A stretch of DNA of 64,000 bases from NCBI RefSeq assembly GCF_030770395.1, contig NZ_CP132480.1, positions 5,330,222 to 5,394,221 of the forward strand, written 5' to 3'. The position numbers and the translations under genes were made by a program. Below, piece by piece: positions 43,915-63,569 of the stretch. Numbering within the stretch: position 1 is the first letter of the stretch; every line of letters starts with the position of its first letter. The notes beneath the pieces were generated by a model. The model worked only from the letters and a program-made list of their open reading frames with translations. It ran no database searches and had not been told where the DNA came from. The DNA is from Telluria beijingensis. Lineage in GTDB: Bacteria > Pseudomonadota > Gammaproteobacteria > Burkholderiales > Burkholderiaceae_D.

Positions 43915-44154
43915 CTGAGGTTTCCTTCTAATCCGGTAAATATCCGGGCAATGGAGGGGCCACGCGCAGGGCGCGGCGGTCCACGCGGGGGCGTGGGCTG
44001 CTCCTGATGTGTAGAAGCGAACGGGGCGCGTGCGCCCGTCCACGAGAATCGCCAGCTGGCGCTGGCGTAGGTGACGCCGGATGAAGCTGGCCGGGGCTGG
44101 CTTCGGTCCGGGTCGATGCTGCTGGGGTGCTGCTGGGGTGCTGCCAGGTGCTGC

Positions 44155-45309: not shown

Positions 45310-45319
45310 GAATGTGTCT

Positions 45320-45390
45320 TACCCTAATTAAACAATGTAACCCTTTGAGCGCTGGAAACTTCCTAAGTTCAACTTTTTTTGAGAAATTTT
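45320..45390 (-). promoter_or_regulatory. Conserved upstream element shared with the lipoprotein gene
   Basis: On the plus strand it contains ttaaacaatgta, tttga, ggaaacttcctaagttcaa and gagaaat in the same order and near-equal spacing as 47477-47550. In both places it starts 11-12 bases upstream of the start codon. GGAA-GT-TTCC within it is an inverted repeat. It probably holds the promoter plus an operator. The remainder of the 309-base gap (to 45618) is AT-rich to 45440 and then GC-rich, with nothing else recognised. Confidence 0.6.
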
Positions 45391-45618
45391 TTCTGCGGGC
45401 ACTAAATTTTTTGGGGCAATGTTTCTATGGAAATTGAATACTCAGCAGTTCGGCATCCGGAAAAAGCGGGCGTGAGGCAGGAAAATCGATTGGGAGGATG
45501 CGGCGCGCCACACCATCGGCGCGTGCGGCGGCACGCGCGAGAGGTGGAAGGTGGAAGATGGAAAGTGAGAGGTTGACCAGAGGCCACGGGCCATGGCGGC
45601 CCGGGCGAAAAAAACCGA

Positions 45619-46773
45619 TCAGAACTGGTTGGCGCCGATATCGATGCTGGCGCCGCGCGCTTCGCCTTCGATATCGTTGGCGGGCGCATACGTCGCCAGG
45701 CCGCGGCCGATCGCCGGCGAGCTTGCAGACAGTGCGAAGCGGGCGATACCCGTGGCGCGCGCCGTGGCGGCGAACAGCGGCGCCGAGCCGACGGTCGCGC
45801 TATGGCTCAAGCCATTACTCAGCTGGAAGTCGACAACCGTGTTCCCGTTGACCAGGTTGTTCTTGTAAGTATTGCCACGGCCCGTCGTACCCTGCTCCGA
45901 AATGCCGTACTGGTTGTCGACCACGATATTGTTGTGCACCTGGACGTCGTCGGCCCCGGCGCTGGTGAAATAGAAGTCGCCGCCGCCCACGATGATGCCG
46001 AACATCGACGACGCCACCGTATTGTTGACGATCTGGACGTCGCGCGCGTCGTGCCACAGATGAATCGCGGTCGACGCGATGCCGTAGACGACATTGTTCT
46101 TGACGGTGCCCGAGGTGCTCATATAGATGCCCTGAACATGGGTGCAGCCGGTCGGGCCGATATCGTGCACCAGGTTGCCGAGCACGGCGCCCTGGACGCC
46201 GCGGTAATAGCTGTCCACGCCGATCCCCGAGCCGCCGCCGCCGTTGCAGCCGATGGTGGTGGCAACATCGTGCACATGGTTGCCCTCGATCACGCTGAAG
46301 GAACCGCCCGTATAGATGCCATGGGTCCATGTGGCGCCGCTGGCGGGTGCGCTGCCATCGACGTCGAAACCGATGATGCTGACGTAGTCGCCGCGGTTGT
46401 CCCAGGCGCTGTTACTGCTGGAGCGCGCCGGCGGCACGATCCTGGCGCCCCACTTGGTGGTCGAGATCCAGTAGATGCGCTCGCTTGCCGTGCCGCTGGC
46501 CGTGGTCTGGACACCGCCGGCATAAGTGCCCGGGGCAACCCAGACCGTGGTGCCGGCCCTGGTCGCGGCCTGGGCGGCGCGCGCCAGGGTCTGGAACGGC
46601 GCGTCCTGCGTGCCGGCAGCCGTGTCGGCCCCGCTCGGCGACACATAGAAATTGTAGGGGGTAGCCGGCGGCGCGGCTTGCGCCGCCAGGGTGGCGCCCA
46701 ACAGGGCTGCGGTGCTGGCCGCGCGTGCCAGTCGGGTGTGGACGGTCGACGTCCGGGTGAACGAAGTTGTCAT
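45619..46773 (-). CDS. Secreted parallel beta-helix protein (paralogue 3, diverged)
   Basis: 384 residues from the ATG at 46773; the frame is open upstream but without signal-peptide character. Signal peptide (ASTAALLGATLAAQA) followed by the same beta-helix as the two genes to its left (YNFYVSPSGADTAAGTQDAP, IEGNHVHDVATTIGCNGGGG, VQIVNNTVASSMFGIIVGGG), ending DIGANQF. It is clearly more diverged than paralogues 1 and 2 are from each other, so it marks the older duplication. All three read leftward, with gaps of 240 and 309 bases, so each probably has its own promoter. Confidence 0.82.
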   Translation of the reverse strand: MTTSFTRTSTVHTRLARAASTAALLGATLAAQAAPPATPYNFYVSPSGADTAAGTQDAPFQTLARAAQAATRAGTTVWVAPGTYAGGVQTTASGTASERIYWISTTKWGARIVPPARSSSNSAWDNRGDYVSIIGFDVDGSAPASGATWTHGIYTGGSFSVIEGNHVHDVATTIGCNGGGGSGIGVDSYYRGVQGAVLGNLVHDIGPTGCTHVQGIYMSTSGTVKNNVVYGIASTAIHLWHDARDVQIVNNTVASSMFGIIVGGGDFYFTSAGADDVQVHNNIVVDNQYGISEQGTTGRGNTYKNNLVNGNTVVDFQLSNGLSHSATVGSAPLFAATARATGIARFALSASSPAIGRGLATYAPANDIEGEARGASIDIGANQF

Positions 46774-46976
46774 GATGTGATTCCCAGGTCTGGCCTGGCG
46801 CTCGCCAGGCATTTGCGAGAGACAACATGTCCCCAGCGCGCTGCATCGAGCGCGACGGTCCACGGGCGTGGTCTCGCGGGTTGTGACAGGAGACGGCTCA
46901 TGCAGCGCCGTGGATCAGTACCGGCGCCCGGTGACGCGCCTGCCGTGGCAGGCACAGGGATGGTGAAGCGTGGTTC

Positions 46977-51001: not shown

Positions 51002-51487
51002 ATGTTGAAATCGACAACCCTTGGTGCTGTGCTGCTGGCCGCTGTCGCGGTATCGCCGGCGGCAATGGCCGGTGATCGTGGTACCAACACAGCCGTCGGC
51101 GCGGTGCTCGGCGCCGTCGTCGGCCACACCGTCGGCGGTACCGGCGGCGCCGTCGCCGGCGGCGTGATCGGCGCGGCAGTGGGCAACTCCATCAGCACCC
51201 GCGACGACCGCCGTCATTACGGCCACCACGGCGGCTACTACCAGTCGCAACCGGTGTACGTGCAGCCGCGCCCCGTGTACGTGGAGCCGCGTCCGGTCTA
51301 CGTGCAGCCGCGCCCGGTCTACGTGGAATCGCGTCCGGTGTACGTCCAGCCACGCCCGGTGTACGTGCAACCGCGCCCGGTCTATGTCGAGCAGCGCGGA
51401 CGCGGCTGGGACCGGCATGATCGCCATGACCGGCACGACCGCCACGATCGCTGGGATCGCGACGACCGCCGCGGCTACTACCGCTAA
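51002..51487 (+). CDS. Glycine-zipper protein with PVYVxxR and DRH repeats
   Basis: 161 residues. Signal peptide (TLGAVLLAAVAVSPAAMA), then a glycine-zipper 2TM segment (AVGAVLGAVVGHTVGGTGGA, AGGVIGAAVGN) typical of outer-membrane-associated proteins. Seven copies of PVYV-x-x-R follow, and the tail is a His/Asp/Arg repeat (DRHDRHDRHDRHD). The His-rich tail might bind metal. The start has AAAGGAAAG seven bases upstream. A terminator follows at 51512. Function unknown; related proteins are stress-induced envelope proteins. Confidence 0.78.
   Translation: MLKSTTLGAVLLAAVAVSPAAMAGDRGTNTAVGAVLGAVVGHTVGGTGGAVAGGVIGAAVGNSISTRDDRRHYGHHGGYYQSQPVYVQPRPVYVEPRPVYVQPRPVYVESRPVYVQPRPVYVQPRPVYVEQRGRGWDRHDRHDRHDRHDRWDRDDRRGYYR
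51251..51397 (+). repeat. 21-bp tandem repeat, seven PVYVxxR units
   Basis: Seven successive 21-base units, each coding Pro-Val-Tyr-Val-x-x-Arg, where x-x is QP, EP, ES or EQ. Units differ by a few synonymous changes. Exact periodicity with no indels points to expansion by unequal exchange. Confidence 0.9.
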
Positions 51488-51591: not shown

Positions 51592-52554
51592 ATGTACGAA
51601 GCAGGCACCGTCGTTTCGCTGGCCGGCGGCCAGTATCGCTTGCGCGAGGCCTTGGCCAGTTCGGCCTATGGCGTCGTCTGGCGCGCCGACAGCCTGCACG
51701 CCACCGGCAGCGTCGCCCTCAAGCTGGTCAACCTGGAACAGATGGCGCGCGCGCCATCCGGCCTGCGCGCGCGCTGGCTGGCCTGCGCAGCCACCGAGAT
51801 CGCCTTCCTGCGCGGCCTGGCGCCGTGGGACGGGCGCCACATCGTGCGCCTGCTCGACAGCGGCGAGCATGCCGGCATGCCGGCCATGGCGCTTGAACTG
51901 CTCGACGGCGACCTGGCCGCCTGGCTGCAGCGCGAAGCGGCGCATGGCCGCGCCCTCGCACCTGACCGCGCGCTGGCCTGGGTCGGCCAGGTCAACCAGG
52001 CGCTGGCCAAGGTCCATGCCAACGGCTGGCGCTATCTCGACCTCAAGCCCGGCAACCTCCTGCTCGACGGGGCGAGCGACAGCGTCAAGCTGGCCGATTT
52101 CGGCACCAACCGCCGCCTCGACGACCTGCGCGCCCACACCTACGCCGGCACCGCCAACTGGCAGGCGCCGGAACAGTTCTTCCCCGACGCCGGCGGCTAC
52201 GCCACCGAGGCCCGCACCGACTACTTCGCCCTCGGCGGCCTGCTCTACTACCTGGTGTGCGGCCGCCTGCTGCGCTACAGCAGCGCCTGCGGCCAGGCCT
52301 GGCAGGCGCACGGGCGCGACGCCGCGGCCAGCCTGCTGGCCGAACGCCATGGCCGTCCCGCCGTGCTGCAGGCCGACGAAGCGGCGCTGTTCGCCGGCCG
52401 CCTGGGTGCCGGCGCCGCGGCCGGCCTGGCGCTGTTGCGCGCCCTGCTGGCCGAACGCCCCGCCGAGCGCCCGCGCCACGCGCTCGACATCAGCCGCGGC
52501 CTGGCGGACACGCTTGCCGCCATGCAGGCCGCGCCGCTACGGAGCGCCGCATGA
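51592..52554 (+). CDS. Ser/Thr protein kinase (Hanks type)
   Basis: 320 residues. GGGGGA precedes the ATG by four bases. Kinase subdomains are readable: nucleotide loop ALASSAYGVVWRA (lacks the first Gly), VALKLVNLEQ (ATP-anchoring Lys), Glu of helix C in CAATEIAFLR, catalytic loop RYLDLKPGNLLLD with catalytic Asp (HRD is replaced by YLD), metal-binding DFGTN, APE motif WQAPEQF and the late helices. No membrane segment and no PASTA repeats, so it is cytosolic. The stop overlaps the SEDS gene start (ATGA). A PP2C phosphatase lies 8 kb on, and FHA-type proteins are in between, giving writer, reader and eraser. Confidence 0.9.
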   Translation: MYEAGTVVSLAGGQYRLREALASSAYGVVWRADSLHATGSVALKLVNLEQMARAPSGLRARWLACAATEIAFLRGLAPWDGRHIVRLLDSGEHAGMPAMALELLDGDLAAWLQREAAHGRALAPDRALAWVGQVNQALAKVHANGWRYLDLKPGNLLLDGASDSVKLADFGTNRRLDDLRAHTYAGTANWQAPEQFFPDAGGYATEARTDYFALGGLLYYLVCGRLLRYSSACGQAWQAHGRDAAASLLAERHGRPAVLQADEAALFAGRLGAGAAAGLALLRALLAERPAERPRHALDISRGLADTLAAMQAAPLRSAA

Positions 52555-54887
52555 AGATGCAGCGCCCATCCCTCGGCAGTTCCCTCGCCTGGTCCCTGCT
52601 GGCGCTGCTGTGCGCCGTGCAGCTGCTGGCCCTGGCCAGGGCGCCGGCCGCCTGGACCCCGGCCAGCATCGCCGTGACCCTGGCACCCGGCGAGGCGATC
52701 GTGCTGGGCCGCCAGGAACTGGGCGCCCCGCGCGCCGCCGCGCGCCAGCTGGTGCTGCGGCGCGCGCTCGATGGCCGCTGGCTGCTGCGGAACTTCGAGC
52801 CGCGGCAGCCGCTGGTGCTGCGCCGTGGCGAAGCGCGCGAGCGCAGCAGCGAGCTGCCGCTCGCTGCCGGCCAGCGCATCCAGGCCGGGGCCCTGCGCTT
52901 GCAGGTGGTGGCGGCCGAAGCCGGCCGGGTCACCCTGCACGACGGCGAACAGACCTGGACCTACGACGGCGCCACCGTGCTGCGCGACGGCGAGCCGCAG
53001 CCGGCCTGCCCCGACACGCCGCTATCGGCGCGCGCGGTTGCAGCCTGGAACCGCTGGCTGCCGCAGGCGCTCAGCCTGGCCCGTCCGGTGGGCCTGGGTG
53101 GCCTGCTCTACTGCGGCAACCGCATCGCCGCCGGCGCGCTCGAAGCGGGCGACGCCACCCTGCTGCGCCAGGCCGATGGCCGCATCGCCCTGGCGGCGCG
53201 CGGCGCCCAGCCGGTGCTGGTCGCGAGCGGCGCAGCCTGGCAGGACGCCGCCCGGCGCGAACTGCCGCTGGCCGGCGTGGACGCCTTCGCCGTCGGCCGC
53301 ACCCTGTTCACCCTGGCCGACGACGGCGCCACCCTGCGCCTGACGCCGTCGCGCCAGGTCGCGCTGGCTGCCGCACCTTCCAGGCTGCTGCCCGCCGCGG
53401 TGAGCTGGCGCTGGGAACGGCGCGACCACTTTTCACTGCCCGCCCCACCGCCGCTGGCCTGGGCCGCGGCGCTCGCCGTGTTGCTGGCAGCCCTGGCGCT
53501 ACTGGCGCCGCAGCTGCGCCAGCGCCAGGACCGCGTTCGTCCACTTGCGGCGGCGCTGCTGGCCGCCACCGCCATGCTGCTGCTGGTAAGCCAGCGCAGC
53601 GCCGGCGCGCCGGGCGCCGCCGTCTCGCTGCTGCTGGGATGGGCCGCGCTGTGGCTGGCCATGCTCTACCCGCGCCGCGCGGCGCTGCTGCCCTCCAGCG
53701 CCGTGCTGCTGCTCGGCGCCGGCCTGCTGGTGCAGCTCGAGATGGGACTGGGGGCGGGCGACACCGCCTGGCTGCGCCACTTCCAGAACACCACCGCGCT
53801 GCTGGGTCTCGGCCTGCCGGGCGCCCTGCTGCTGCTGTCCTGCTTCGCCCGCGGCGCCGTGTCGCGCCCGGTCACCGAGCGGGTGCTGCTGGTCTTCGCC
53901 GGGCTGGCACTGGGCGGCCTGCTGCTGCAGGTCTGCTTCGGCAGCGAGACCGGCGTGTTCGACATCCAGCCCTTCGAGTTCGCCAAGTTCGCGCTGGCCG
54001 CGCTCAGCGCGCACTGCCTCGCGCTGGCCGCCGGCGGCGCTGGATACGAGCGGCGCGACTGGCGCTTCTGGCTGCACATGGCGGCGCCGGTGCTGCTGTT
54101 TATGTTCCTGCTGGCGGCGGCGCTGGTGCGGGTCGACGATTATTCGCCGCTGGTATTGCTGCTGGTGTGGAGCGGCGCGATGCTGCTGGCCTGGTGCGCC
54201 AGCCGCGGACGGCGCGCGGCGCTGGCCTCGATCGCCGTCGCCGCCTGCCTGCTGGCGGCCGGCGGCGCGGCAATGCGCGCCGGCGGCGACCTGCTGGGCG
54301 CCTTCGGCTTCTATCCCGAGCGCTTCCAGGTCTGGAGCGAACCCACCATCCACCCGCACACCGGCCAGCAGATGCTGCAAGGCAGCCGCGCCATCGTCCA
54401 GGGCGGCTGGTTCGGCGCGGACGGGCTGCTCGGCATGGCGACCTTGGGCGGCGCGGCCGGCGAGGCACTCGCGATCCCCGCCATCCAGGACGACTTCGCG
54501 CCGTCCTTCCTGCTGCACCGCCACGGCCTGGCCGCGGGGCTGGCCCTGTGGACCCTGCAGGCGCTGTTCCTGGCGGCCCTGCTGCGCGCCGCCGCCGGGG
54601 CCTGGCATGGCGCCCAGGGCGCCCGGGACTTCCGGCGCGCCTGGATCGGCCGCTTCCAGTGCTTCGCCCTGTGCGGCGGCGCGGCCTTCGTCGCCGGCCA
54701 CCTGCTGCTGTCGTGGGGCACCAACCTGGCGATGTTCCCGATCATGGGCCAGCCCATGAGCTTCCTGTCGGCGGGCGGTTCGCACCTGCTGTTTTTCATC
54801 TGCCCCCTGCTAGCGTTCGGCATGGCGAGCAACCAGTTCAACGAGGAGAATCCATCATGCCGGTCTATGTCCAACACGAAGTCCTAG
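52551..54887 (+). CDS. FtsW/RodA/SpoVE (SEDS)-type protein with FHA-like N-terminal region
   Basis: 778 residues. After a first membrane helix (SLAWSLLALLCAVQLLALA), residues 40-140 look like an FHA-type beta sandwich (AIVLGRQELGAP, ALDGRWLLRNFEPRQPLVLR, GQRIQAGALRLQVV), with a second beta-rich stretch to about 280. From about 300 to the end there are ten or so membrane helices with SEDS features: VDDYSPLVLLLVWSG (place of the catalytic Asp), AIQDDFAPSFLLHRHGLAAG and the family end PIMGQPMSFLSAGG. SEDS proteins polymerise glycan strands of peptidoglycan with a class B PBP; no PBP gene is adjacent. Coupled to the kinase by a four-base overlap. Confidence 0.82.
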   Translation: MKMQRPSLGSSLAWSLLALLCAVQLLALARAPAAWTPASIAVTLAPGEAIVLGRQELGAPRAAARQLVLRRALDGRWLLRNFEPRQPLVLRRGEARERSSELPLAAGQRIQAGALRLQVVAAEAGRVTLHDGEQTWTYDGATVLRDGEPQPACPDTPLSARAVAAWNRWLPQALSLARPVGLGGLLYCGNRIAAGALEAGDATLLRQADGRIALAARGAQPVLVASGAAWQDAARRELPLAGVDAFAVGRTLFTLADDGATLRLTPSRQVALAAAPSRLLPAAVSWRWERRDHFSLPAPPPLAWAAALAVLLAALALLAPQLRQRQDRVRPLAAALLAATAMLLLVSQRSAGAPGAAVSLLLGWAALWLAMLYPRRAALLPSSAVLLLGAGLLVQLEMGLGAGDTAWLRHFQNTTALLGLGLPGALLLLSCFARGAVSRPVTERVLLVFAGLALGGLLLQVCFGSETGVFDIQPFEFAKFALAALSAHCLALAAGGAGYERRDWRFWLHMAAPVLLFMFLLAAALVRVDDYSPLVLLLVWSGAMLLAWCASRGRRAALASIAVAACLLAAGGAAMRAGGDLLGAFGFYPERFQVWSEPTIHPHTGQQMLQGSRAIVQGGWFGADGLLGMATLGGAAGEALAIPAIQDDFAPSFLLHRHGLAAGLALWTLQALFLAALLRAAAGAWHGAQGARDFRRAWIGRFQCFALCGGAAFVAGHLLLSWGTNLAMFPIMGQPMSFLSAGGSHLLFFICPLLAFGMASNQFNEENPSCRSMSNTKS

Positions 54888-56422
54888 GCAAGGTCCAGGA
54901 CGTGTTCAATGCCGACGCCCTGTGGCAGGCGCCTGGCCTGGCGCTGTTCGCGCGCCGTCCGCTGCTGCGCGACCTGCTCGAGCGCTCGCCGCGCGAGCAG
55001 CGCGGGCGCGCCGCCACGCGCTGCTTCTCGCACGTGACCCTGGTGCTGCCGCAGGACGAGGTCGACGACGACCGCCACCTGACCCGCGGCGCCCGGGTGC
55101 GCGACCTGGCGCAGTCGCTGGCCGCGCTGCACCAGAAGGATTTCGGCGACCTGCTCGGCGGCGACGAAGTGCGCTACCACGTGCTGGGCAGCGACGGCAT
55201 CGCCCCGGGCGAGGTGCAGGTCAAGTTCGGCCACGCCGTCTACCTGCCGGCGCCGGGCGAGCAAGTGCAGTACACCGTGACTGCTTCGCGCGACAGCGCG
55301 ATCTGGCAGCCGGTGTGCGCGATCTATCCGAACCAGCGCCTGACCCTCGTCGGCCAGGACGCGGCCAGCGCCACCTTCGCCGTGCCCGGCTGGCCGTTCG
55401 GCGCGGACGGCGGCCTGCTGCTGGTGAACGACGGTCCGGACGCGCCGCTGGAACTGCAAGTGCGTCCCAAGGACAGTTTCGAGTGCCGCTTTGACGCCGC
55501 CAACGGTTACTACGTCTTGCGCGGCAAGGGCGCCAGCGCCCAGCGCCTGCTGCTCAAGATCGCCCGCGCCCATGCCGGCGTCCGCCCGCAGCCGGCGCCA
55601 GTCGCCACGCCGAGCGCGCCGCCGCAGCGCAGCCCCGCCGTGTGGAAGGCCCGCACGCCCAGCGCCACCCCGCCAGCGGCCGACCTGACCGCGATGCCCG
55701 TGGCCACCCCCGCGCCGGTGCCGAAGGCCGCAACCCCGGTGGCCGAGCTGGATGCCACCTACGCCCCGGTGGCGCGCCACCGCATCGCGCTGGCCGCGCT
55801 GGCCCTGCCGCGCCTGAGCCGCTACCGCGAGACCGGCGCCCAGGCGATGGAAGTCGGCCTCGATGCCCAGCTGATGCCGAGCGCGCCGGGCAAGGATAAC
55901 CTGATCCGCTTCGCGGTCGACGAGGCCGACGAACTGCATGCGATCACCTCCGCCGGCCGCCAGCGCATCGCCGTGCCGTCGCAGTTTTCCCCGCTCGATA
56001 ACGCCAGCATCCGCCTGCTGGCGGTGCAGCAGCAACTGGCCGAGCGCTATAGCGCGCTGCTGGTGCTGCCAAAGGGGCCGTCGCAGCCGGCGGCGGCCGG
56101 CACCCGCCTGACCTTCGGGCGCGGCATGCCGGCGCTGGGTGCGCTGCGCGTGCTCGACACGCCGCAATTCGTGCGCCACGGGGACGGCGCGCCGGCCGCC
56201 AGCGCCGACCGCCTCGGCCTGTCGCGCAATGCCTTCAGTTGGGAAGCGTCGAGCGACGGCCTGCGCGTGGCGCGCCTGTCGCCGACCCAGGCGCTGTACC
56301 ACCTGGACGAGCACCTCGCCCTGGTGGCCCAGGTCGAGACCGCGACCCAGGAGCAGCCCTACCTGATCCCGCCGGGTCATCACCTGGTGGCCGGCCACTA
56401 CGTGCTGCGCTTCGACGCCTGA
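54857..56422 (+). CDS. FHA-like two-part protein of the kinase cluster, function unknown
   Basis: 521 residues, starting inside the 3' end of the SEDS gene (31-base overlap; GAGGAGAA upstream of the ATG). The N-terminal part (about 1-230) has a beta-rich fold not recognised. A Pro/Ala/Thr linker (about 238-300) joins it to a C-terminal part. Its last 100 residues read like an FHA domain: TRLTFGRGMPALGALRVLD, LGLSRNAFSWEASSDGLRVA, and a final HHLVAGHYVLRF. It is plausibly a phosphothreonine reader for the neighbouring kinase, by analogy with FhaA next to RodA in actinobacteria. No membrane segment. Confidence 0.7.
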   Translation: MPVYVQHEVLGKVQDVFNADALWQAPGLALFARRPLLRDLLERSPREQRGRAATRCFSHVTLVLPQDEVDDDRHLTRGARVRDLAQSLAALHQKDFGDLLGGDEVRYHVLGSDGIAPGEVQVKFGHAVYLPAPGEQVQYTVTASRDSAIWQPVCAIYPNQRLTLVGQDAASATFAVPGWPFGADGGLLLVNDGPDAPLELQVRPKDSFECRFDAANGYYVLRGKGASAQRLLLKIARAHAGVRPQPAPVATPSAPPQRSPAVWKARTPSATPPAADLTAMPVATPAPVPKAATPVAELDATYAPVARHRIALAALALPRLSRYRETGAQAMEVGLDAQLMPSAPGKDNLIRFAVDEADELHAITSAGRQRIAVPSQFSPLDNASIRLLAVQQQLAERYSALLVLPKGPSQPAAAGTRLTFGRGMPALGALRVLDTPQFVRHGDGAPAASADRLGLSRNAFSWEASSDGLRVARLSPTQALYHLDEHLALVAQVETATQEQPYLIPPGHHLVAGHYVLRFDA

Positions 56423-56429
56423 GCCGCCG

Positions 56430-56903
56430 ATGGTTTCCATGACCCACGTGGCCGCCTTTGGCGCCGCCCTGGTGCTGACCCTGTGCGCCTGCGCCTGGCT
56501 CACGCCGCGCGCCTGGTGGCGGCGCCCGACCGCGCGCACGCTGGGTGTGCTCGGACTCGGCACGGCGGCCGGCGGGACCTTGCTGCTGGCCCTGTTCGGC
56601 AGCCCGGCCGCGCACCCGGTCGTCGGCCCGCAACCGGTCCTCGCCGCGCAGGCGCCGATGGATTCCGGCGCCGACGTGCCGGTGGCGGGCGCGCGCTACC
56701 GCACGCACGATGCGCTCAACCTGCGGGTGGCGGGCGGGGTCGGCGCCGAACGCCTGCTGGTGGTGCCTGCGGGCGCGCGGGTCGAGGCGACCGGCCGCCG
56801 CGACGGCGACTGGTGGCAGGTACGGGCAACAGTCGACGGCCAGGCGGTCGAAGGCTGGGCCAGCAGCCTGTGGCTGCGGCGGGCGGACGAAGGCCGCGGT
56901 TAG
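56430..56903 (+). CDS. Membrane-anchored bacterial SH3-domain protein
   Basis: 157 residues, seven bases after the FHA-like gene. Two membrane helices in the first 65 residues (AAFGAALVLTLCACAWLTP and LGVLGLGTAAGGTLLLALFG) put the C-terminus back on the starting side. An SH3_3 domain follows: ALNLRVAGGVGAERLLVVPA, GRRDGDWWQVRATVDGQAVE, GWASSLWLR. Bacterial SH3 domains often bind peptidoglycan peptides, which suits a SEDS-linked cluster if the domain is periplasmic. The 3' end overlaps the convergent gene by four bases. Confidence 0.8.
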   Translation: MVSMTHVAAFGAALVLTLCACAWLTPRAWWRRPTARTLGVLGLGTAAGGTLLLALFGSPAAHPVVGPQPVLAAQAPMDSGADVPVAGARYRTHDALNLRVAGGVGAERLLVVPAGARVEATGRRDGDWWQVRATVDGQAVEGWASSLWLRRADEGRG

Positions 56904-57625
56904 TCGCGGGCGGTGCGCCAGACCTGCCGTTTGGGCGGCGTTTCGTGCTTCGGACACGTGGTGAAGCGCTGCTTGCCGTGCATCTCGATCATCTCGATGC
57001 CGGTCGTCGGCGCCCGCTCGGTGATGCAGTAGGTGCCCCTGCCGGTGATGACCCGGGAACGGCGCGCGCCGTCGCCGGTATTGTTCACCAGTTCCTCGAC
57101 CTTCGGCGCTTCGAACAGGCCGGGCGCCGCCATGGCGCGGGCATGTTCCATCCCTTCGCGCATGCGGATCTGCGGGCTGTCCGGCGGCGCGACGATCAGG
57201 GGTTTATTCTCTTTGCGCAGCGCGCGGTCGATGTCGCCGACGCTGCGCCGTGCGTTCGCCAGGATCTCGGCGGCGCTGGGCGCGGCGACTGGCGGCGCGG
57301 CGGCCGCTGCGTCGTCCACCATTAGCGCGGGAACGGGGTCGGCCCGGACCGCAGGCACTGCCGCAGCCTGGGGCCGGGCCGCTCGCGCCGGTTCGGCCGG
57401 CGCCGTCTCGACGCGCGGCGCCGGCGTAGAAGCAGGCGCCGGGGCGGGTAGCGACAGCCACAGCATCGCCTCGTCGCTGCCTTCATCCGTGCGCGGCGGC
57501 AGCTTGCCAGACAGTTGCCAGGCCACGATCAGGGCCAGGTGGACGCCCAATGTAACGGCGACGCCGGTGAAGCGGTCATGGCGGGCGCCGAACGCCGGCG
57601 GGAGCGATTGAGAGATGCTGGACAT
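56900..57625 (-). CDS. Single-pass Pro/Ala-rich membrane protein, function unknown
   Basis: 241 residues. A membrane helix at about 20-40 (FTGVAVTLGVHLALIVAWQL) has the 'G-V-H' form seen in TonB-like proteins. A Pro/Ala linker follows, then a C-terminal region with SAAEILANARRSVGDIDRAL and a two-cysteine end (GRGTYCITERAPTTG, TTCPKHETPP). No TonB_C domain can be recognised. It lies convergent to the kinase cluster and upstream of nothing on the minus strand inside 3 kb. Not recognised. Confidence 0.6.
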   Translation of the reverse strand: MSSISQSLPPAFGARHDRFTGVAVTLGVHLALIVAWQLSGKLPPRTDEGSDEAMLWLSLPAPAPASTPAPRVETAPAEPARAARPQAAAVPAVRADPVPALMVDDAAAAAPPVAAPSAAEILANARRSVGDIDRALRKENKPLIVAPPDSPQIRMREGMEHARAMAAPGLFEAPKVEELVNNTGDGARRSRVITGRGTYCITERAPTTGIEMIEMHGKQRFTTCPKHETPPKRQVWRTARD

Positions 57626-57670
57626 GGACCAGCAGTATAGCGAGCCAGCCGGGATGCACGCTCACCAATT

Positions 57671-58390
57671 CTAACCACCAACGATCGCGCGCACCGTCGC
57701 CATGTGCGTGGGGACGGACATGACCTCGAGCAGCAGTTCGCGCAAGCCATCCCAGACGATCTGCACGCCGAGGCACAGCAGGATGAAGGCGGTCAGGCGC
57801 AGGAAGACCGCCGTTCCGGCTTCGCCGATGAAACGCAGGAAGTGTTCGCCGTAGCGGAACGCGAGATACAGCAGCACGCCGATGACGGCCAGCGCCACCA
57901 GTGCGCCGCCCATGCGCGCCAGCGAGATCACGATCTGCGCGTCGTGCAGGGCGACGCCCACCGTGATGGCGACCGCGATCGAGGCCGGACCGCAGCTGAT
58001 CGGAAAGGTCAGCGGATAGAAGGCCTGGCGCTGGGCATGGTCGGGCGTGAAGGCCTCGGCCAGCGCCGCCCGGCTGTCCGGCGTGCTCGGCGTCGCCCCG
58101 AGCAGGCGCCACGCCACGGACGCGAGGATCAGGCCGCCGCCGACGCGGACGATGGGCAGCGAGATGCCAAAGAAGTCCAGTACATACGAACCGATGAGCA
58201 TCGAGCCCGTCATCAGCCAGAACATATTGCGCGCGATGCGGCGCGCCAGCAGCGTGCGGGTCGCGGGCGAGGCGCCTTCGGTCATGCTCAGGAAGATCGG
58301 CGCCGTGGCGGCCGGATTCAGGATCGGCAGCATGGTCACCAGTACGAACAAAAAACTCCTGGCCACGGCCAGTATCAACTCGAGGGTCAT
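57671..58390 (-). CDS. MarC-family membrane protein
   Basis: 239 residues from the ATG at 58390 (MTLELILAVARSFLFVLVTM); a longer start 30 bases up is possible. Six membrane helices and family motifs: LPILNPAATAPIFLSMTEGA, FPLTFPISCGPASIAVAITV-like element (YPLTFPISCGPASIAVAITV), and LTAFILLCLGVQIVWDGLRE. MarC proteins are inner-membrane proteins of unresolved transport role; they are not part of the mar multidrug regulon function. Located in the block that splits the kinase-phosphatase cluster. Confidence 0.9.
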   Translation of the reverse strand: MTLELILAVARSFLFVLVTMLPILNPAATAPIFLSMTEGASPATRTLLARRIARNMFWLMTGSMLIGSYVLDFFGISLPIVRVGGGLILASVAWRLLGATPSTPDSRAALAEAFTPDHAQRQAFYPLTFPISCGPASIAVAITVGVALHDAQIVISLARMGGALVALAVIGVLLYLAFRYGEHFLRFIGEAGTAVFLRLTAFILLCLGVQIVWDGLRELLLEVMSVPTHMATVRAIVGG

Positions 58391-58474
58391 GGAAATGTAG
58401 GATGGGTCGTCGCCCCACACTCTACATGACGCGCGGCGGTCGCTAACGCACGGCTGGATGCGACCGTTCGACAG

Positions 58475-58867
58475 TCAGGTCCAATGCCATGCCTGGTCGT
58501 CGAATCCGATATTGAATGGCGTCAGGACGGCATTCCGGCCCGCCAGCGGCAAGGCGGTGTTGGTCGGATCGAACAGGACCGCGATCTCGATGCGGCGCCC
58601 CTCGACCATGACGGCGACTTTCTTCAAGAAGAGCAACGACATAACCATGCCGCCTGCCGTACCGACTGCCCGGGGAGTTGCCCGGCTCAGGTCCAGCCCG
58701 GCGGCCGTCGCGGCAAGTGCGGGAAGCTGCAAATAGTCGGCTCCCGTATCGACCAGGCATTTGTGGGTAACCGTATTCTGGTATCCGGGACTACCGACCA
58801 GCCTGACGTCGGCATACGGCCGGTTGCCCACGAATGCGGCGCTGCGTGCGAACCAATGGCTGCTCAC
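58475..58867 (-). CDS. Retropepsin-like aspartic protease
   Basis: 130 residues from a GTG at 58867 that overlaps the upstream stop (GTGA). The clan AA signature CLVDTGADYLQLP holds the catalytic Asp. VGTAGGMVMSLLFLKKVAVM is the flap region and VLFDPTNTALPLAGRNAVLT resembles the hydrophobic-hydrophobic-Gly element after it. One domain only, so activity would need a dimer, as in retroviral proteases. No signal peptide. It is last in a three-gene unit with a 65-residue protein and a trypco2-type protein. Substrate unknown. Confidence 0.78.
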   Translation of the reverse strand: MSSHWFARSAAFVGNRPYADVRLVGSPGYQNTVTHKCLVDTGADYLQLPALAATAAGLDLSRATPRAVGTAGGMVMSLLFLKKVAVMVEGRRIEIAVLFDPTNTALPLAGRNAVLTPFNIGFDDQAWHWT

Positions 58868-59061
58868 TGCAGTATTCCTGTCGGCAGATAGGCGATCGTG
58901 ATGCTGCTGAGCGGGATCTGTTGCCTGACCAGGTAAGCGACCAGGTCGTCGTAGCGCTGGCTTTCTCCAACCAGCCGCTGCGCATCGACGGCGACCCACA
59001 AGTCGCGCGGAACGTTCTGTAGATGGTTGTCGATCCAGATCGAGCCTGCATGTACTGACAT
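58864..59061 (-). CDS. 65-residue protein between trypco2 and retropepsin genes
   Basis: 65 residues from the ATG at 59061, chosen for GGAGG five bases upstream. Contains SIWIDNHLQNVPRDLWVAVD and LVAYLVRQQIPLSSITIAYL; globular with no membrane helix. Stop overlaps the protease start. Not recognised. Position suggests an adaptor or a substrate of the protease. Confidence 0.6.
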   Translation of the reverse strand: MSVHAGSIWIDNHLQNVPRDLWVAVDAQRLVGESQRYDDLVAYLVRQQIPLSSITIAYLPTGILQ

Positions 59062-59106
59062 TCCAGCCTCCGAGGAAAATGCGGTGGCCGCTGCTATCCG
59101 CCGCAA

Positions 59107-59457
59107 CTACTCACTGTTGTTCGCGGATGAACGCGCCTTCTTGCCGGACTGGCGCACGATCGCAGGCGCAGGCGGAGGAAGATCCAGCACCGTCTGGCTC
59201 GCCTGCATGGCCTGCCCCGGAATCGCCTTGTACTTGACCCTGATCGTGTTTGCCTGCTCGCGCTTGGCCGCCGCGCCGAATTCCATGACCCATACCTTCA
59301 GGCCGGCGCTACCGCTGGCCTCGACCTTCACCGCGAATTCGACTTCGCATTCCTCGAACTGCATGACGGGAGCGCCACGCTGTCGCGCCGCACGATCGGC
59401 TTCTTGCAGTTGCGTCGAGATGTGCTGTAGCACATCCGCCAGTTCGAACCGCGCCAT
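59107..59457 (-). CDS. Trypco2-domain protein
   Basis: 116 residues; GGAGG lies five bases upstream of the ATG. The domain order matches the trypsin-co-occurring type 2 domain: a helix LADVLQHISTQLQEADRAAR, then strands VMQFEECEVEFAVKVEAS, LKVWVMEFGAAAKREQ and NTIRVKYKAIPGQA. Trypco domains have been described as adaptors in NTP-dependent bacterial conflict systems, usually beside trypsin-like proteases. Here the protease downstream is a retropepsin type instead. Family assignment is by remembered pattern, not a profile search. Confidence 0.6.
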   Translation of the reverse strand: MARFELADVLQHISTQLQEADRAARQRGAPVMQFEECEVEFAVKVEASGSAGLKVWVMEFGAAAKREQANTIRVKYKAIPGQAMQASQTVLDLPPPAPAIVRQSGKKARSSANNSE

Positions 59458-59603
59458 GCTGCCTCCATACGAGAAGAGTGACCGTTAGCACTGCATCAGC
59501 ACCAATATACGCTTTGTAATTGCCGCTGCAATCATCTCTTCTGCCAGTTGTGGCTTTTTGAAAAACATTCTCCGCGTGATGACGCGGCCGCATCGAACGA
59601 TAT

Positions 59604-60089
59604 TCAACCGGCGTCGCCATCCGCCCATCCCAGCCGCATGGGATTGAAGTACAGTCCCTTCGCGCACTGCATCGGCCCGACCCGCACGAAGCCGAAACGC
59701 TCGTACACCGGCACCGCATGGTTCGACGCATTGACCGTGAAGTTGCCGTCGCCGCCACGCACGATGGCCGTCGCCCTCGCCACGTTCCACAGCTTGCGCG
59801 CCAATCCCCGTCCATGCCAGCGCTTGCCGACGAACAGGTGGAACAAATGGCTGTTGTCGCGGATCGCGATAAACCCCGCCAGTTGGCCGTCGTCGAGCGC
59901 CACGTGATACACATGGCCCAGCGCCAGGAATGTGCGCACGCCCATCTGGTCGTTCTCGGCCAGGAAGGTCGCGGCGCCTTCGGGCGTCGATTCATGCACG
60001 ATGAACTCGAGCGCCAGTTCGCGCAGCAGGGCCGCGATGGCCGGGGCCAGCATAGGGATATCGGTATCGACCAGCGGTCGGATGTCCAT
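59604..60089 (-). CDS. GNAT-family N-acetyltransferase
   Basis: 161 residues from the ATG at 60089. GNAT fold: MDIRPLVDTDIPMLAPAIAA, strand GHVYHVALDDGQLAGFIAIR, then acetyl-CoA loop LFVGKRWHGRGLARKLWNVA (Q/R-x-x-G-x-G/A) and C-terminal NASNHAVPVYERFGFVRVGP. Probably acetylates a small molecule or protein N-terminus; substrate unknown. Upstream of the trypco2 gene by 146 bases and in the same direction, but with room for a separate promoter. Confidence 0.88.
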   Translation of the reverse strand: MDIRPLVDTDIPMLAPAIAALLRELALEFIVHESTPEGAATFLAENDQMGVRTFLALGHVYHVALDDGQLAGFIAIRDNSHLFHLFVGKRWHGRGLARKLWNVARATAIVRGGDGNFTVNASNHAVPVYERFGFVRVGPMQCAKGLYFNPMRLGWADGDAG

Positions 60090-60197
60090 GAAACGGATTG
60101 AAACTGTTGCGTGGAACGTAAACATAGCACAGCGTTGATTTGCCATAAGGCAATTTTCTTGACGACCGAGCCGGACCCACCCTACCATGGTCCGACC

Positions 60198-60624
60198 GTG
60201 CCGAAAGCGATCCTGCCGCGTGTCTTCCATCCTGCCGCCGGCGCCGCCCCCAGGCTCCGCATCCCCCTGACCCAGCCGCTGCGCCATGCCCGCTACCGCC
60301 GCATCTGGCTCGCCAACCTGGTCTCCAATCTCGGTACCTGGATACAGACCTTCGCTGCGGTCTGGCTGGTGGCCTCCCTGTCGCAATCGGCTTCGATCGC
60401 CGCGCTGGTCCAGACCGCGACCTATGCGCCAGTCTTCCTGTTCGCGCTGCTGACCGGCGTGCTGGCCGACGCCGTGCACCGGCCCAAGTTCCTGTGCCGG
60501 CAGCGTGTTCTGGGGCCTGGTGGCCGATGCCTGGGGCGTGCGCGCCGCCCTGGCGGTGGCCGGCGCCTGCGTGGTGCTCAATGCGCTGGCGCTAATGGGC
60601 GGTAACCGGAAAAATCCCATCTGA
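60198..60624 (+). pseudogene. MFS transporter remnant with large internal deletion
   Basis: From a GTG at 60198 the frame codes the N-terminus of an MFS (EntS/MFS_3-like) exporter: PLRHARYRRIWLANLVSNLG, TWIQTFAAVWLVASLSQSAS, FLFALLTGVLADAVHRPKFL. At about 60497 the reading frame breaks. From 60499 another frame codes the end of the same kind of protein: GSVFWGLVADAWGVRAALAV then AGACVVLNALALMG. About 270-300 central residues are missing. So this is a deleted, inactive gene of about 140 codons. It lies at the edge of the block that interrupts the kinase-phosphatase cluster. Confidence 0.75.
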
Positions 60625-60686
60625 TCGGCACATTGCCAACGTTGAAAGAGGTGTAGAGTATCGGCATCGTCCCGCTCATATTGCCA

Positions 60687-61667
60687 ATGCCAGTCACCCT
60701 CGCCGATTTCCGCTTCGCCCCCTGTTTCGACGTGGCGGTCGCCAGCCGCATCGGCTGCGGCCCCGCCACGCGCGCCGAAAACCAGGACAACTTCGTCGTC
60801 ATCGACTTCGATGGCCGCGCCTGCCGGCTGCAAGACCAGCGAGCGCTCTGCCTGACCGTCGATGGCTGGCCGGCCGGGCATGGCCGGCTGGCGGTGCTGG
60901 ACGGCATGGGCGGCCACGGCCATGGGCGCGAGGCGGCCGAAGCGCTGGCGGCGGCCCTGCTCGCCATGCCGCCCTGCGCCACGCCGGAAGAACTGGGCGA
61001 GCGGCTGGACGCCATCCACGCCGGCCTGCAGGCGCGCTTCGCCGTCGAGGGCGAAAGCACGGCGCGCCCCGGCACCACGCTGACCCTGCTCGAGCTGCGG
61101 GCCGGCGGCGCGCCGCTGCTGTACCACGTCGGCGACTCGCGGCTGTACGAACTCGATGCCATGCGCGCCACGCCGCTCAGCGTCGATCACGTGCCGGCCA
61201 CCGTCGCCGCCCTCGCCGGCCGCCTCGACGAAGCGGGCTGGTGGCGCCAGGTGCACGGGCGCCACGCGCCGCAGATCGCCCAGGCCGTCATTCTCGGCAA
61301 TGCCTTCGCCGACCCGGCGCGCCTGTCCGACCCGCTGTTCGCCCTGACGCCGAACAACCTGCCGTGCTGGCTGGGCCACCTGGCGGACCGCCGCGCGCTG
61401 TCGCTGCGGCCCGGCGCGGCCTATCTGCTGGCCACCGACGGCTTCTGGTCCTGCACCCAGCCGGACGGTTTCGTCGCCGGCTGGCCGGCGCTGCTGCACG
61501 ACGGCCCGGACGCGGCGACCCTGGTCGAACGCCTGTTCGGCCTGCTGGAAAACGATCCGCCGGCCGGCCTGCAGCCCGATAACCTGACCGCACTGGTCGT
61601 GCGTCCGCTCGCCCGCCACGCGGACGAAACCGCGCTGCCGGTGGAAGCGGACCATACCGTCATTTAG
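60687..61667 (+). CDS. PP2C-type Ser/Thr protein phosphatase
   Basis: 326 residues from the ATG at 60687. PPM motifs in order: RAENQDNFVVIDFDG, LAVLDGMGGHGHGREAAEAL (metal-binding Asp-Gly), RPGTTLTLLELRAGG, LYHVGDSRLYEL, LATDGFWSC and DNLTALVVRPL. All expected metal Asp residues are present, so it should be an active Mn/Mg phosphatase. Cytosolic. It is the natural eraser for the Ser/Thr kinase at 51592 and is followed by an FHA-domain gene, as PstP and FhaB lie together in actinobacteria. Confidence 0.92.
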   Translation: MPVTLADFRFAPCFDVAVASRIGCGPATRAENQDNFVVIDFDGRACRLQDQRALCLTVDGWPAGHGRLAVLDGMGGHGHGREAAEALAAALLAMPPCATPEELGERLDAIHAGLQARFAVEGESTARPGTTLTLLELRAGGAPLLYHVGDSRLYELDAMRATPLSVDHVPATVAALAGRLDEAGWWRQVHGRHAPQIAQAVILGNAFADPARLSDPLFALTPNNLPCWLGHLADRRALSLRPGAAYLLATDGFWSCTQPDGFVAGWPALLHDGPDAATLVERLFGLLENDPPAGLQPDNLTALVVRPLARHADETALPVEADHTVI

Positions 61668-61684
61668 CGAAGAGGAGAACCGGC

Positions 61685-61878
61685 ATGCCAACAGCGACGG
61701 CAACGAGCGAGGCGGACACCACGATGGCGGTCGACGACTTTATGGCGCAACTCTCCCATCCCCGCTGACATGGCATGGGGCGAACCGGGCCTCGTTCGAG
61801 GTGCGCGGCATGGACGAATTGCGCGCCCGCACCCCGGCCCTGCGCGCCATCCTGGCCCAGTGGATTCCCCACGTCTGA
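61685..61878 (+). pseudogene. Small frameshifted gene after the phosphatase, family unknown
   Basis: An ATG at 61685 with a strong ribosome site (GAGGAG) starts MPTATATSEADTTMAVDDF and stops after 27 codons at 61768. In the -1 frame the sequence runs on from PLTWHGANRASFEVRGMDEL through RARTPALRAILAQWIPHV to a stop at 61878, with good coding character. A single missing or extra base near 61760 would join them into a protein of about 64 residues. Either a recent frameshift, a sequencing error or slippage at CATCCCC. The family is not recognised. Confidence 0.4.
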
Positions 61879-62027
61879 CATGCCACGGTGGCAGTTGCAA
61901 GTTCCTTCCGGGTTGATGCTTTTAGAAAATAATGTTGTTAATCAACGAACTTGGTGCGCCGTACGGTTCAAAAACAGCGTAAGCTAGCAATGTTTATTCC
62001 GACCATTATTTAACTTGCCGTTCTGAC

Positions 62028-63569
62028 ATGAACCGCTGCCGCAATCCCGCGCATCCGCACTGCACCGTCTGGGTCTTGCCCGGCGATGCCATGTGTGCGC
62101 ACGGGCATGCCCAGCCCGCCGATGAAGCGGTGGCCGCGCCAGCGCCCGTGATGGCGTCGGCGGTGGCCGGGCTGCCGTCGAGCTTCGACGCCATCACCGC
62201 CCTGCGCAGCCGGCGCAACACCGAAATCAGACCGGTCGCGACCGATCGCGTGGTCCACCTGCAACGTCCCCAGCTGCACATCAGCGGTTTCGATCCGCGC
62301 GCGGCCGGCGGCCGCCAGGCGATCCGGCTCGAGCTGCGCGGCATGCCGATGGATTGCGCGCCCGAGGTGCGCATGCTGGTGCGCTCGGCGCTGCGCCTGC
62401 ACGGCGGAGAAAGCTATGGTTTCCAGCGCACCTCGCGCGGCGACTGGCGGCCGCTGTTCCTCGAATTTTCCTCGCGCGGCCTGGAACATGGCCAGTACCG
62501 GATCGAGATCGAGCTGCACAGCCGCCATCCGCAGGCGCCCGACGCGAGCCGCACCTGGACCTGCTCGCCGGTAATCCTGGTGCCGCGCCAGGACGCCAGC
62601 CTGGGCGAGATCCACCAGACCTTCCTCGCCACCCACAAGAACGTGCGGGTGACGGCGGACGACGCCGGCATCGCCCGGGTGAATGCGCCGGGCGGCGGAC
62701 GGATCGACATCGACGTCACGGCGCGCAACGCCTCGATCGCCCAGCTCAACCTGGACGGCGGCGGCAGCGGCAAGATCGACCTCGGCATGTCGACCATCGC
62801 GTGGGACGAAGACCTGATCGAGATCGACCTGCCGGCCCCGGCCGCCCACCCCTGCCCGGCCACCGGCGCCTGCCTGGTGCATGCCGAGGCCGATTCCGCC
62901 ACCCAGCGCCACGTGCGCCTGTTCGCGCTCGACGAGTGCGTGCTGGGCCGCTTCGAACCCATCGCACCCGAGGCCGAGCTGCTGCTGGCCCACCACGGCG
63001 AAGCCGGCATGGAGTACGGCGGCCTGACGCGGCGCCTGTCGGGCCGGCACGCCGTCATCCGGCGCAGCCGCCATGGCTTCGAGATCGAGGACGTGTCACG
63101 CTACGGCCTGCTGCTGGACGGCGTCTGGCCCGGCAAGCACATGCCGGTGCAGCTGCGGCTGGGCATGCGGATCGATCTGACGGCCAGCATCAAGGGCATC
63201 GTCACGCTCGAGGTGACGGCCCTGATGGCGCACGCCGTGGTGCTGCACCGGTTGGACGCCGGCGCGCGCGCCGAATGCTTCTACCTGATGGCGCCGGACT
63301 GCCTGCCAGCACCGTCGAAGGCGGCCGGCATGCCGCGCGCCGCCACGCTGCCGCTGCTGTTCCACCGCGATGGCGGCTTCTGGCAAGTCGACCGCGCCAG
63401 CGGACGCGAGACGCCGCTGGCGCCGGAGTCGGGCCTGGACCGCCTGCCGCAAACTGGCCTGGGCATCGCCGCGCGCTTCGTGGCGCAAGCCTATCCGGAG
63501 GCGCACGGCGGCCCCCGCGGCAGCGACGAGCGCCGCAGCTTCTTGCCGTCCCCCGCCTTCAGCGCCTGA
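62028..63569 (+). CDS. Zinc-ribbon and FHA-domain protein
   Basis: 513 residues. The N-terminus MNRCRNPAHPHCTVWVLPG with C-AHGH after it looks like a short zinc ribbon (Cys/His ligands near 4, 12, 23, 25-27). The middle (about 80-190) is a beta-rich domain not recognised, then a stretch with repeated strands (RIDIDVTARNASIAQLNLDG) that may be a small beta-solenoid. A clear FHA domain lies at about 300-385: ECVLGRFEPI, RRLSGRHAVIRRSRHGFEIE, DVSRYGLLLDG. The C-terminal part (to 513) is unassigned. FHA domains bind phosphothreonine, so this should read the output of the cluster's kinase. Confidence 0.82.
   Translation: MNRCRNPAHPHCTVWVLPGDAMCAHGHAQPADEAVAAPAPVMASAVAGLPSSFDAITALRSRRNTEIRPVATDRVVHLQRPQLHISGFDPRAAGGRQAIRLELRGMPMDCAPEVRMLVRSALRLHGGESYGFQRTSRGDWRPLFLEFSSRGLEHGQYRIEIELHSRHPQAPDASRTWTCSPVILVPRQDASLGEIHQTFLATHKNVRVTADDAGIARVNAPGGGRIDIDVTARNASIAQLNLDGGGSGKIDLGMSTIAWDEDLIEIDLPAPAAHPCPATGACLVHAEADSATQRHVRLFALDECVLGRFEPIAPEAELLLAHHGEAGMEYGGLTRRLSGRHAVIRRSRHGFEIEDVSRYGLLLDGVWPGKHMPVQLRLGMRIDLTASIKGIVTLEVTALMAHAVVLHRLDAGARAECFYLMAPDCLPAPSKAAGMPRAATLPLLFHRDGGFWQVDRASGRETPLAPESGLDRLPQTGLGIAARFVAQAYPEAHGGPRGSDERRSFLPSPAFSA

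Follow-up and report, generated by a model that had tools for sequence, protein, structure and literature searches.

A conserved kinase-SEDS-FHA gene cluster of Massilia-type bacteria that may place an envelope-glycan enzyme under Ser/Thr phosphorylation control

We analysed a 64,000-nucleotide stretch of the Telluria beijingensis genome (hereafter, the window; positions 5330222-5394221 of the 6.0 Mb single-contig genome, NZ_CP132480.1), in which six plus-strand genes encode, in this order, a Hanks-type Ser/Thr kinase (KIN), a divergent SEDS protein, a 521-aa protein here named T3, an SH3 protein, a PP2C phosphatase, and an FHA protein (Table 1). This is apparently a conserved and undescribed gene set of Massilia-type bacteria, which pairs a divergent third SEDS protein with a kinase, a phosphatase, and phospho-readers. 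We established its gene content, synteny, and co-occurrence, the folds of its domains by profile comparison and hydropathy, and the conservation of its catalytic residues and motifs. In our judgement there is about an even chance that the four-gene block KIN-SEDS-T3-SH3 encodes an accessory synthase that is dedicated to an envelope glycan and controlled by Ser/Thr phosphorylation. The six genes lay where the initial annotation had placed them, those of the block overlapping or within 7 bp of each other, and Pfam or NCBIfam matched five of the six. The KIN and SEDS genes overlap by 4 bp and the SEDS and T3 genes by 31 bp, and T3 and SH3 are separated by 7 bp; co-expression is therefore implied by the overlaps.

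At 21 loci from Massilia, Telluria, Pseudoduganella, and one Oxalobacteraceae strain unassigned to a genus, the SEDS gene was followed by T3 and SH3 in every case (21/21), and KIN stood ahead of it at all 19 loci whose sequence reached upstream. Besides the window's genome, 67 genomes carry T3; layouts were prepared for 51 of these (16 were left out), the mapping covering the named cluster genes only, and 42 of the 51 showed KIN-SEDS-T3-SH3-PP2C-FHA in one order and on one strand, which bears out the earlier claim that these parts form a cluster in a betaproteobacterium. All six genes were also present in G070 when two stretches were combined, and the stretch or contig ended before KIN became visible in G120, G011, and G201. 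The SEDS gene was kept in 49 of the 51 genomes. Because the arrangement was conserved across 21 loci and 51 genomes, chance could be excluded. Among 294 genomes of the family, T3 and the SEDS N-terminal domain were each found in 68 and were common to 66 (66 of the 70 with either); T3 occurred without SEDS in G001 and G182, and SEDS without T3 in G222, a draft genome, and in G103, whose match (E 8e-4) is perhaps due to chance.

T3 was rare in the class and phylum samples, where up to 3 to 5 candidates were scored per genome and distant forms may be missed: it was found in 3 of 369 and 2 of 398 genomes, respectively, and both genomes from the phylum sample belonged to the window's genus. The two further genomes of the class sample were G361 and G492. 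The former, of Competibacteraceae type, carries SEDS (32% identity) and T3 (28% identity) genes as an adjacent two-gene pair (L069), the sole Competibacteraceae-type locus seen whole; the G492 contig (L071) starts just before T3. A database entry bearing the name of Candidatus Contendobacter has the same protein sequence as the L069 SEDS protein. The 102 listed SEDS relatives, where named, were mostly from Competibacteraceae metagenome bins and labelled ‘FtsW/RodA/SpoVE family cell cycle protein’; a few carried odd labels (Phycisphaerales and Synechococcaceae), and Oxalobacteraceae came at the end of the list. The 114 relatives of the L069 T3 were unnamed or hypothetical, except for one FHA label.

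The assignment of the membrane protein to the SEDS family, proposed in the initial annotation, was upheld by a profile match to FTSW_RODA_SPOVE (PF01098; E 7.5e-15, residues 468-750, 55.2 bits against a curated cut-off of 26.4), a family that matched all 40 members of the cluster SEDS family. The core also aligned with the genome's own RodA/FtsW (hhalign 97.1%, E 6.3e-11), Asp648 being in register with the TDF-motif Asp in RodA. The catalytic Asp is Asp262 in E. coli RodA, and its equivalent in FtsW is D297, according to excerpts of PMC10449877 and PMC8765783, respectively. Q473, P474, R591, D648, G743, and S744 were invariant in the 40 sequences, and E476 and K479 were present in 37. A quick tree of these 40 proteins and 10 canonical ones (10 of 12 candidates, picked by a motif filter) was split by a branch with full SH-aLRT support, which measured approximately 6 changes per column versus approximately 2.3 between FtsW and RodA and carries a long-branch warning. 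The cluster SEDS proteins thus form a separate, very divergent clade far from FtsW and RodA. The number of PF01098 proteins per genome was three in G280, G235, and G361 (two of the four matches of G361 share a frame) and two in G182, G001, G279, G123, and G241; it was also two in G492, where a contig break falls at the SEDS-T3 pair. A fourth PF01098 match in the window's genome, at 5.42 Mb, was marginal (27.9 bits as protein). A third class B penicillin-binding protein (PBP) was not found in this genome, and no third partner of this class is evident because its only PBP_dimer proteins are the two at 1.06 and 3.81 Mb.

The SEDS protein comprises an N-terminal transmembrane segment, two tandem FHA-fold domains (approximately residues 31-300), three further transmembrane segments, and a SEDS core with ten. 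By hydropathy, the segments lie at 11-29 and at approximately 302, 329, and 355, followed by ten laid over the core, of which two (~475 and ~702) fall short of the stricter threshold and one (~415) of the averaged one. Residues 31-150 and 150-300 are mutual repeats (hhalign 93.3%, E 2.6e-7). Against an FHA profile of 23 sequences, drawn from 31 loci (L030, L031, and L089-L117) by a crude motif filter, the first repeat scored 90.7% (E 1.2e-6) and the second weakly (33.8%); six controls, namely, the T3 N-terminus, PP2C, the kinase, the SEDS core, and two further segments from the FHA protein, remained below 1%. With a single type VI secretion system (T6SS) FHA domain or a shallow 17-sequence alignment of the FHA protein as the target, the values were 0.5 and 3.5% for the first repeat and 21.5 and 1.1% for T3, respectively. 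The Pfam FHA family matched only one of the 40 single SEDS sequences (E 0.058). The pair is predicted to be periplasmic: counting back from a core with the N-in topology of SEDS proteins puts it there, in agreement with the charge bias and with two invariant cysteines (Cys153 and Cys188). It would therefore read no cytosolic phosphothreonine, including any made by the cytosolic kinase. Accordingly, the FHA-like part noted initially stands as an FHA fold, in fact as two, and its predicted location speaks against a phospho-reader. Weak Pfam matches to Yop-YscD_cpl, the YscD-type family of type III secretion inner-membrane proteins, were seen in 2 of the 40 sequences (best E 0.0091); that family is described as a cytoplasmic domain, whereas the FHA fold of the cluster SEDS protein is predicted on the other side.

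KIN retains the catalytic Lys and Asp, DFG, and APE (GTANWQAPE), with the non-RD catalytic loop YLDLKPGN, in which HRD reads YLD, and these motifs were conserved in 20 aligned sequences; neither a transmembrane-like segment (hydropathy) nor a PASTA match (Pfam) was found in it. The Pfam match of the phosphatase (0.0021) is below the curated cut-off, and NCBIfam identifies it as Stp1 (2.1e-8). Its metal-site motifs (ENQDN, DGMGGHG, GDSRLY, DGFW, and DNLTA) were conserved in 17 aligned sequences, in agreement with the initial reading of a complete motif set. The FHA protein, aligned from 17 sequences, served as a positive control against the 23-sequence profile (hhalign 96.3%).

T3 consists of an N-terminal domain without a Pfam match, a Pro-rich linker, and a C-terminal FHA-like domain. 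Its 47 members gave no meaningful Pfam match, with 0/47 for FHA and, in the same Pfam search, none for an FhaA-type N-terminal domain, which the T3 N-terminus may nevertheless resemble; among PDB sequences, neither the T3 profile nor the FHA protein query found a match. The FHA-like label given earlier to T3 is supported by the match of its C-terminus to the 23-sequence profile (hhalign 75.8%, E 2.3e-5) and by GR and GLSR motifs present in 47/47. Just two T3 threonines reach a conservation of 85% or more across the family. One of them, Thr301, lies within the variable linker, in a TxxP context in 46 of 47 members and with an acidic residue at -1 to -3 in 45. A similar site, Thr317, lies in the PP2C tail, whose DETALP sequence echoes the T3 linker motif; it was present in 15 of 17 sequences, the tail being absent in L023 and L024. 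A scan of seven families (T3, SEDS, KIN, PP2C, FHA, SH3, and the FGE kinase described below, the last with 7 sequences) gave no conserved acidic-TxxP site besides these two. Selectivity for the residue at pThr+3 is common among FHA domains, and T301 and T317 are therefore candidate FHA ligands. In Massilia timonae (L007 12307-14580), T3 and SH3 occupy one 758-aa open frame, either a fusion or a frameshift.

A working model can be outlined from these features. The SEDS protein would be the membrane enzyme, with its catalytic site and twin FHA-fold domain on the periplasmic side, and T3 would be its cytosolic adaptor. KIN may phosphorylate Thr301 of T3 and probably Thr317 of the PP2C tail; the resulting pT-x-x-P would be bound by a cytosolic FHA domain, either that of T3 or that of the zinc-ribbon FHA protein, altering the engagement of T3 with SEDS, and PP2C would reset the switch. 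The SH3 protein would anchor the complex to the cell wall or sense the wall. The biochemical steps of this model are all inferred, as are the way in which regulation runs and the substrate, which would be lipid II or a similar undecaprenyl-linked glycan. A bolder reading, which we consider unlikely, is a third class of SEDS glycosyltransferases that dispenses with a class B PBP: the periplasmic twin FHA-fold domain would replace the PBP pedestal on extracellular loop 4 (ECL4), and the cytosolic kinase and PP2C would act through the pT-x-x-P switch of T3, giving a phosphorylation-gated polymerase whose evolution was separate from that of the actinobacterial PknB-RodA system.

Several observations, on gene content as well as on single residues, weigh against a dedicated synthase of this kind. 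PP2C was not found locally in 3 of the 51 genomes with the block (G210, G219, and G106). G182 keeps KIN-T3-SH3-PP2C-FHA with the SEDS gene deleted to a C-terminal remnant: 83 bases separate the KIN match from T3 (L143 4801-4883), one frame of which resembles the last SEDS residues, and the KIN match is shortened to 888 bases for 320 residues. G001 has only KIN-T3-SH3 at the site and no SEDS of the cluster kind, and no match to KIN, the one kinase sought, lay within 20 kb of the L069 pair. The FHA protein was matched in 113 of the 294 family genomes, including all 68 with T3 and G222, and 44 genomes carry it without T3 and SEDS; in one of these (G087, E 1.1e-4) the FHA domain alone matches and may be unrelated. 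As for single residues, the His of the SRxH motif in the FHA-like domain of T3 is present in 22 and missing in 25 of the 47 members. In all 40 SEDS proteins, Gly464 occupies the place of the canonical PL2/ECL2 Trp, that of the RRW found in the genome's own RodA and FtsW (Trp102 of E. coli RodA), a placement obtained by ungapped extension, as the hhalign alignment starts two residues later. The aromatic residue of the S-Y/F-G-G motif (Tyr in the genome's own RodA and Phe in its FtsW) is replaced at 741 by Ala in 33 proteins and Ser in 7. PMC8765783 reports that W138A and Y379A of E. coli FtsW fail to complement. Because some members have a Trp nearby (at 463 in 6/40 and at 469 in 17/40), the SEDS loop may be rearranged rather than stripped.

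The absence of the Trp and the aromatic residue from their canonical places, together with the long separating branch (approximately 6 versus 2.3 changes per column, with the same warning) and the presence of two PBP_dimer proteins for three SEDS proteins, would suit, instead of a peptidoglycan polymerase, a GT-C enzyme acting on another undecaprenyl-linked glycan, such as a capsule, an O-antigen-like polymer, or an exopolysaccharide, which the phospho-module would then control; an excerpt of PMC10449877 likewise describes SEDS proteins as structurally related to the O-antigen ligase WaaL. We consider this explanation unlikely, since the profile match is to SEDS, the catalytic Asp and QP-E-K are kept, and none of the conserved neighbours, for which the mapping covered the named cluster genes, was recognisable as a glycan-export gene.

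Fourteen FHA-protein stretches without an adjoining block were laid out, from 13 of the 44 genomes and from G001. Seven of these share with the window its M28 peptidase and glycine-zipper genes, six in the order M28, glycine-zipper, PP2C, and FHA; in the seventh (L166), PP2C was not found. The other seven (L161-L164, L167, L170, and L171) have the FHA protein without these landmarks, five of them together with zinc-ribbon and kinase/FGE genes. Because the glycine-zipper gene adjoins PP2C in the six block-less relatives and adjoins the block in the window, KIN-SEDS-T3-SH3 is a discrete block that was gained or lost at the site, and PP2C-FHA is a separable module. The single six-gene system envisaged initially therefore holds as synteny and divides into two modules. 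A second kinase gene, encoding an FGE-sulfatase kinase, was found downstream in 37 of the 51 laid-out relatives (it was not in reach in all of the others); where the SEDS block is missing, it adjoins the FHA protein gene.

Such separability would be expected if kinase-T3-SH3 and PP2C-FHA-second kinase-zinc ribbon constituted a general signalling hub, with the SEDS protein as an optional client or membrane sensor in which the FHA fold rather than catalysis matters; the persistence of kinase-T3-SH3 without cluster SEDS in G182 and G001, and of the FHA protein without T3 and SEDS in 44 genomes, fits this explanation. Its probability appears low to us, as the SEDS gene was retained in 49 of 51 genomes with an invariant catalytic Asp, L069 pairs SEDS with T3 in the absence of KIN, and conservation is lower over the SEDS N-terminal domain (40-80% to the window) than over the whole protein (48-86%).

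We next compared the cluster with known systems. Like RodA-PBP2 and FtsW-FtsI, it involves a SEDS core with an Asp at the ECL4 position and QP-E-K and GGS motifs, but its SEDS protein has four extra transmembrane segments and a twin FHA-fold domain predicted to be periplasmic, lacks the canonically placed Trp and aromatic residue, and has no cognate class B PBP that we could find. In Actinobacteria, pknA, pknB, rodA, pbpA, and two FHA genes are grouped, according to an excerpt of PMC3989709. The window cluster similarly encodes a Ser/Thr kinase, a SEDS protein, and FHA proteins together. A phosphatase gene also belongs to the actinobacterial pknA/pknB cluster. The window cluster differs in having no PASTA or transmembrane kinase and no class B PBP gene, a SEDS protein from another clade that carries an FHA-fold pair, an additional SH3 protein, an FGE-sulfatase kinase nearby, and a T3 N-terminus without a Pfam match to any family. 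It thus resembles the actinobacterial cluster on paper but does not belong to that type, having neither a PASTA kinase nor a class B PBP gene. Among the titles and abstracts returned by the literature searches, which left most subscription papers and preprints out of reach, none reported a cluster of this type from beyond Actinobacteria.

The PpkA/PppA/Fha pathway of T6SS also combines a kinase, PP2C, and FHA proteins in Gram-negative bacteria, but the window cluster has a SEDS protein and no T6SS gene was found nearby. The genome has three TssK genes (4.27, 4.42, and 4.67 Mb), which would leave room for a displaced T6SS threonine-phosphorylation pathway with SEDS as an accidental neighbour. 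We regard this as very improbable and rejected the cluster as a T6SS pathway: all three TssK genes lie at least 0.7 Mb from it, and of 168 open frames (>120 aa, six frames) in 54 kb around T6SS-1, only two matched any of 97 cluster records, both through kinase stretches. The T6SS-1 region, which contains TssG, IcmF, VgrG-like, and T6SS-Fha genes (Pfam), has its own Fha and its own PP2C and kinase pair (L190 205-2560), so that it need not depend on the kinase and phosphatase of the cluster; the SEDS gene, moreover, is kept in nearly all laid-out relatives. The separation from T6SS indicated in the initial annotation was hence borne out by the TssK positions and the T6SS-1 region.

Table 1. Features of the cluster and its borders in the window
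Feature	Position	Strand	Evidence
KIN, soluble Hanks-type Ser/Thr kinase, 320 aa	51592..52554	+	Pkinase 4.1e-27, motifs, no transmembrane-like segment
Divergent SEDS protein, 778 aa	52551..54887	+	PF01098 7.5e-15, hhalign, hydropathy topology
SEDS twin FHA-fold region, residues 31-300, predicted periplasmic	52641..53450	+	hhalign, internal repeat, topology
SEDS Asp648 codon	54492..54494	+	aligned with TDF Asp of own RodA; D in 40/40
T3, cytosolic FHA-type protein, 521 aa	54857..56422	+	no Pfam match; hhalign to FHA profile
T3 Thr301 codon, linker motif DATYAP, predicted phospho-switch	55757..55759	+	TxxP in 46/47
SH3 protein, two transmembrane-like segments	56430..56903	+	SH3_3 1.4e-7; segments 7-25, 38-56
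PP2C phosphatase	60681..61667	+	NCBIfam Stp1 2.1e-8, alignments
PP2C Thr317 codon, C-terminal tail DETALP	61629-61631	+	alignments
FHA protein, Cys/His-rich N-terminus and C-terminal FHA domain, 513 aa	62028..63569	+	FHA 1.3e-4, hhalign 96.3%
Glycine-zipper-like protein (by eye), left border of four-gene block	51002..51487	+	layouts of relatives
Variable interval, outside the system	56900..61703	-	profile matches, layouts

The SH3 domain is predicted to be periplasmic from a basic loop between the two transmembrane-like segments (by eye). The variable interval encodes a protein without assignment (56900-57625), MarC, an aspartyl protease-like protein, Trypco2, and a GNAT-like protein (by eye); the small Trypco2 (trypsin-co-occurring) protein (59107-59457, minus strand) lies near the aspartyl-protease-like protein (58475-58999). 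Beyond the window, on the opposite strand, the second Hanks-type kinase (L026 14211-16478) combines Pkinase (1.6e-33) and FGE-sulfatase (1.6e-58) matches with a SHOCT-like start (by eye); a zinc-ribbon protein, for which band-7 scored weakly (0.011), comes next, together with three proteins that fit no family clearly. Elsewhere in the window, three adjoining paralogues (42526-46863, minus strand; 505, 384, and 414 aa) with a common NFYVSP-G-DTAAGT core, beta-helix-like by eye, are a tandem duplication, and similar frames were seen by eye upstream of the cluster in G182 (L188). Approximately 40 kb downstream of the cluster, a VgrG-type protein is followed by a lipase-like protein (L028 10941-15502), possibly a T6SS effector pair.

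If the proposed function is correct, an enzyme dedicated to an envelope glycan would be tied to Ser/Thr phosphorylation in a Gram-negative lineage, as in Actinobacteria but through another architecture. A SEDS protein without an evident PBP partner, with key residues replaced or moved, would offer a naturally occurring case for testing the requirements of SEDS catalysis and activation. T301 and T317 are two single-residue predictions that make the idea directly testable.

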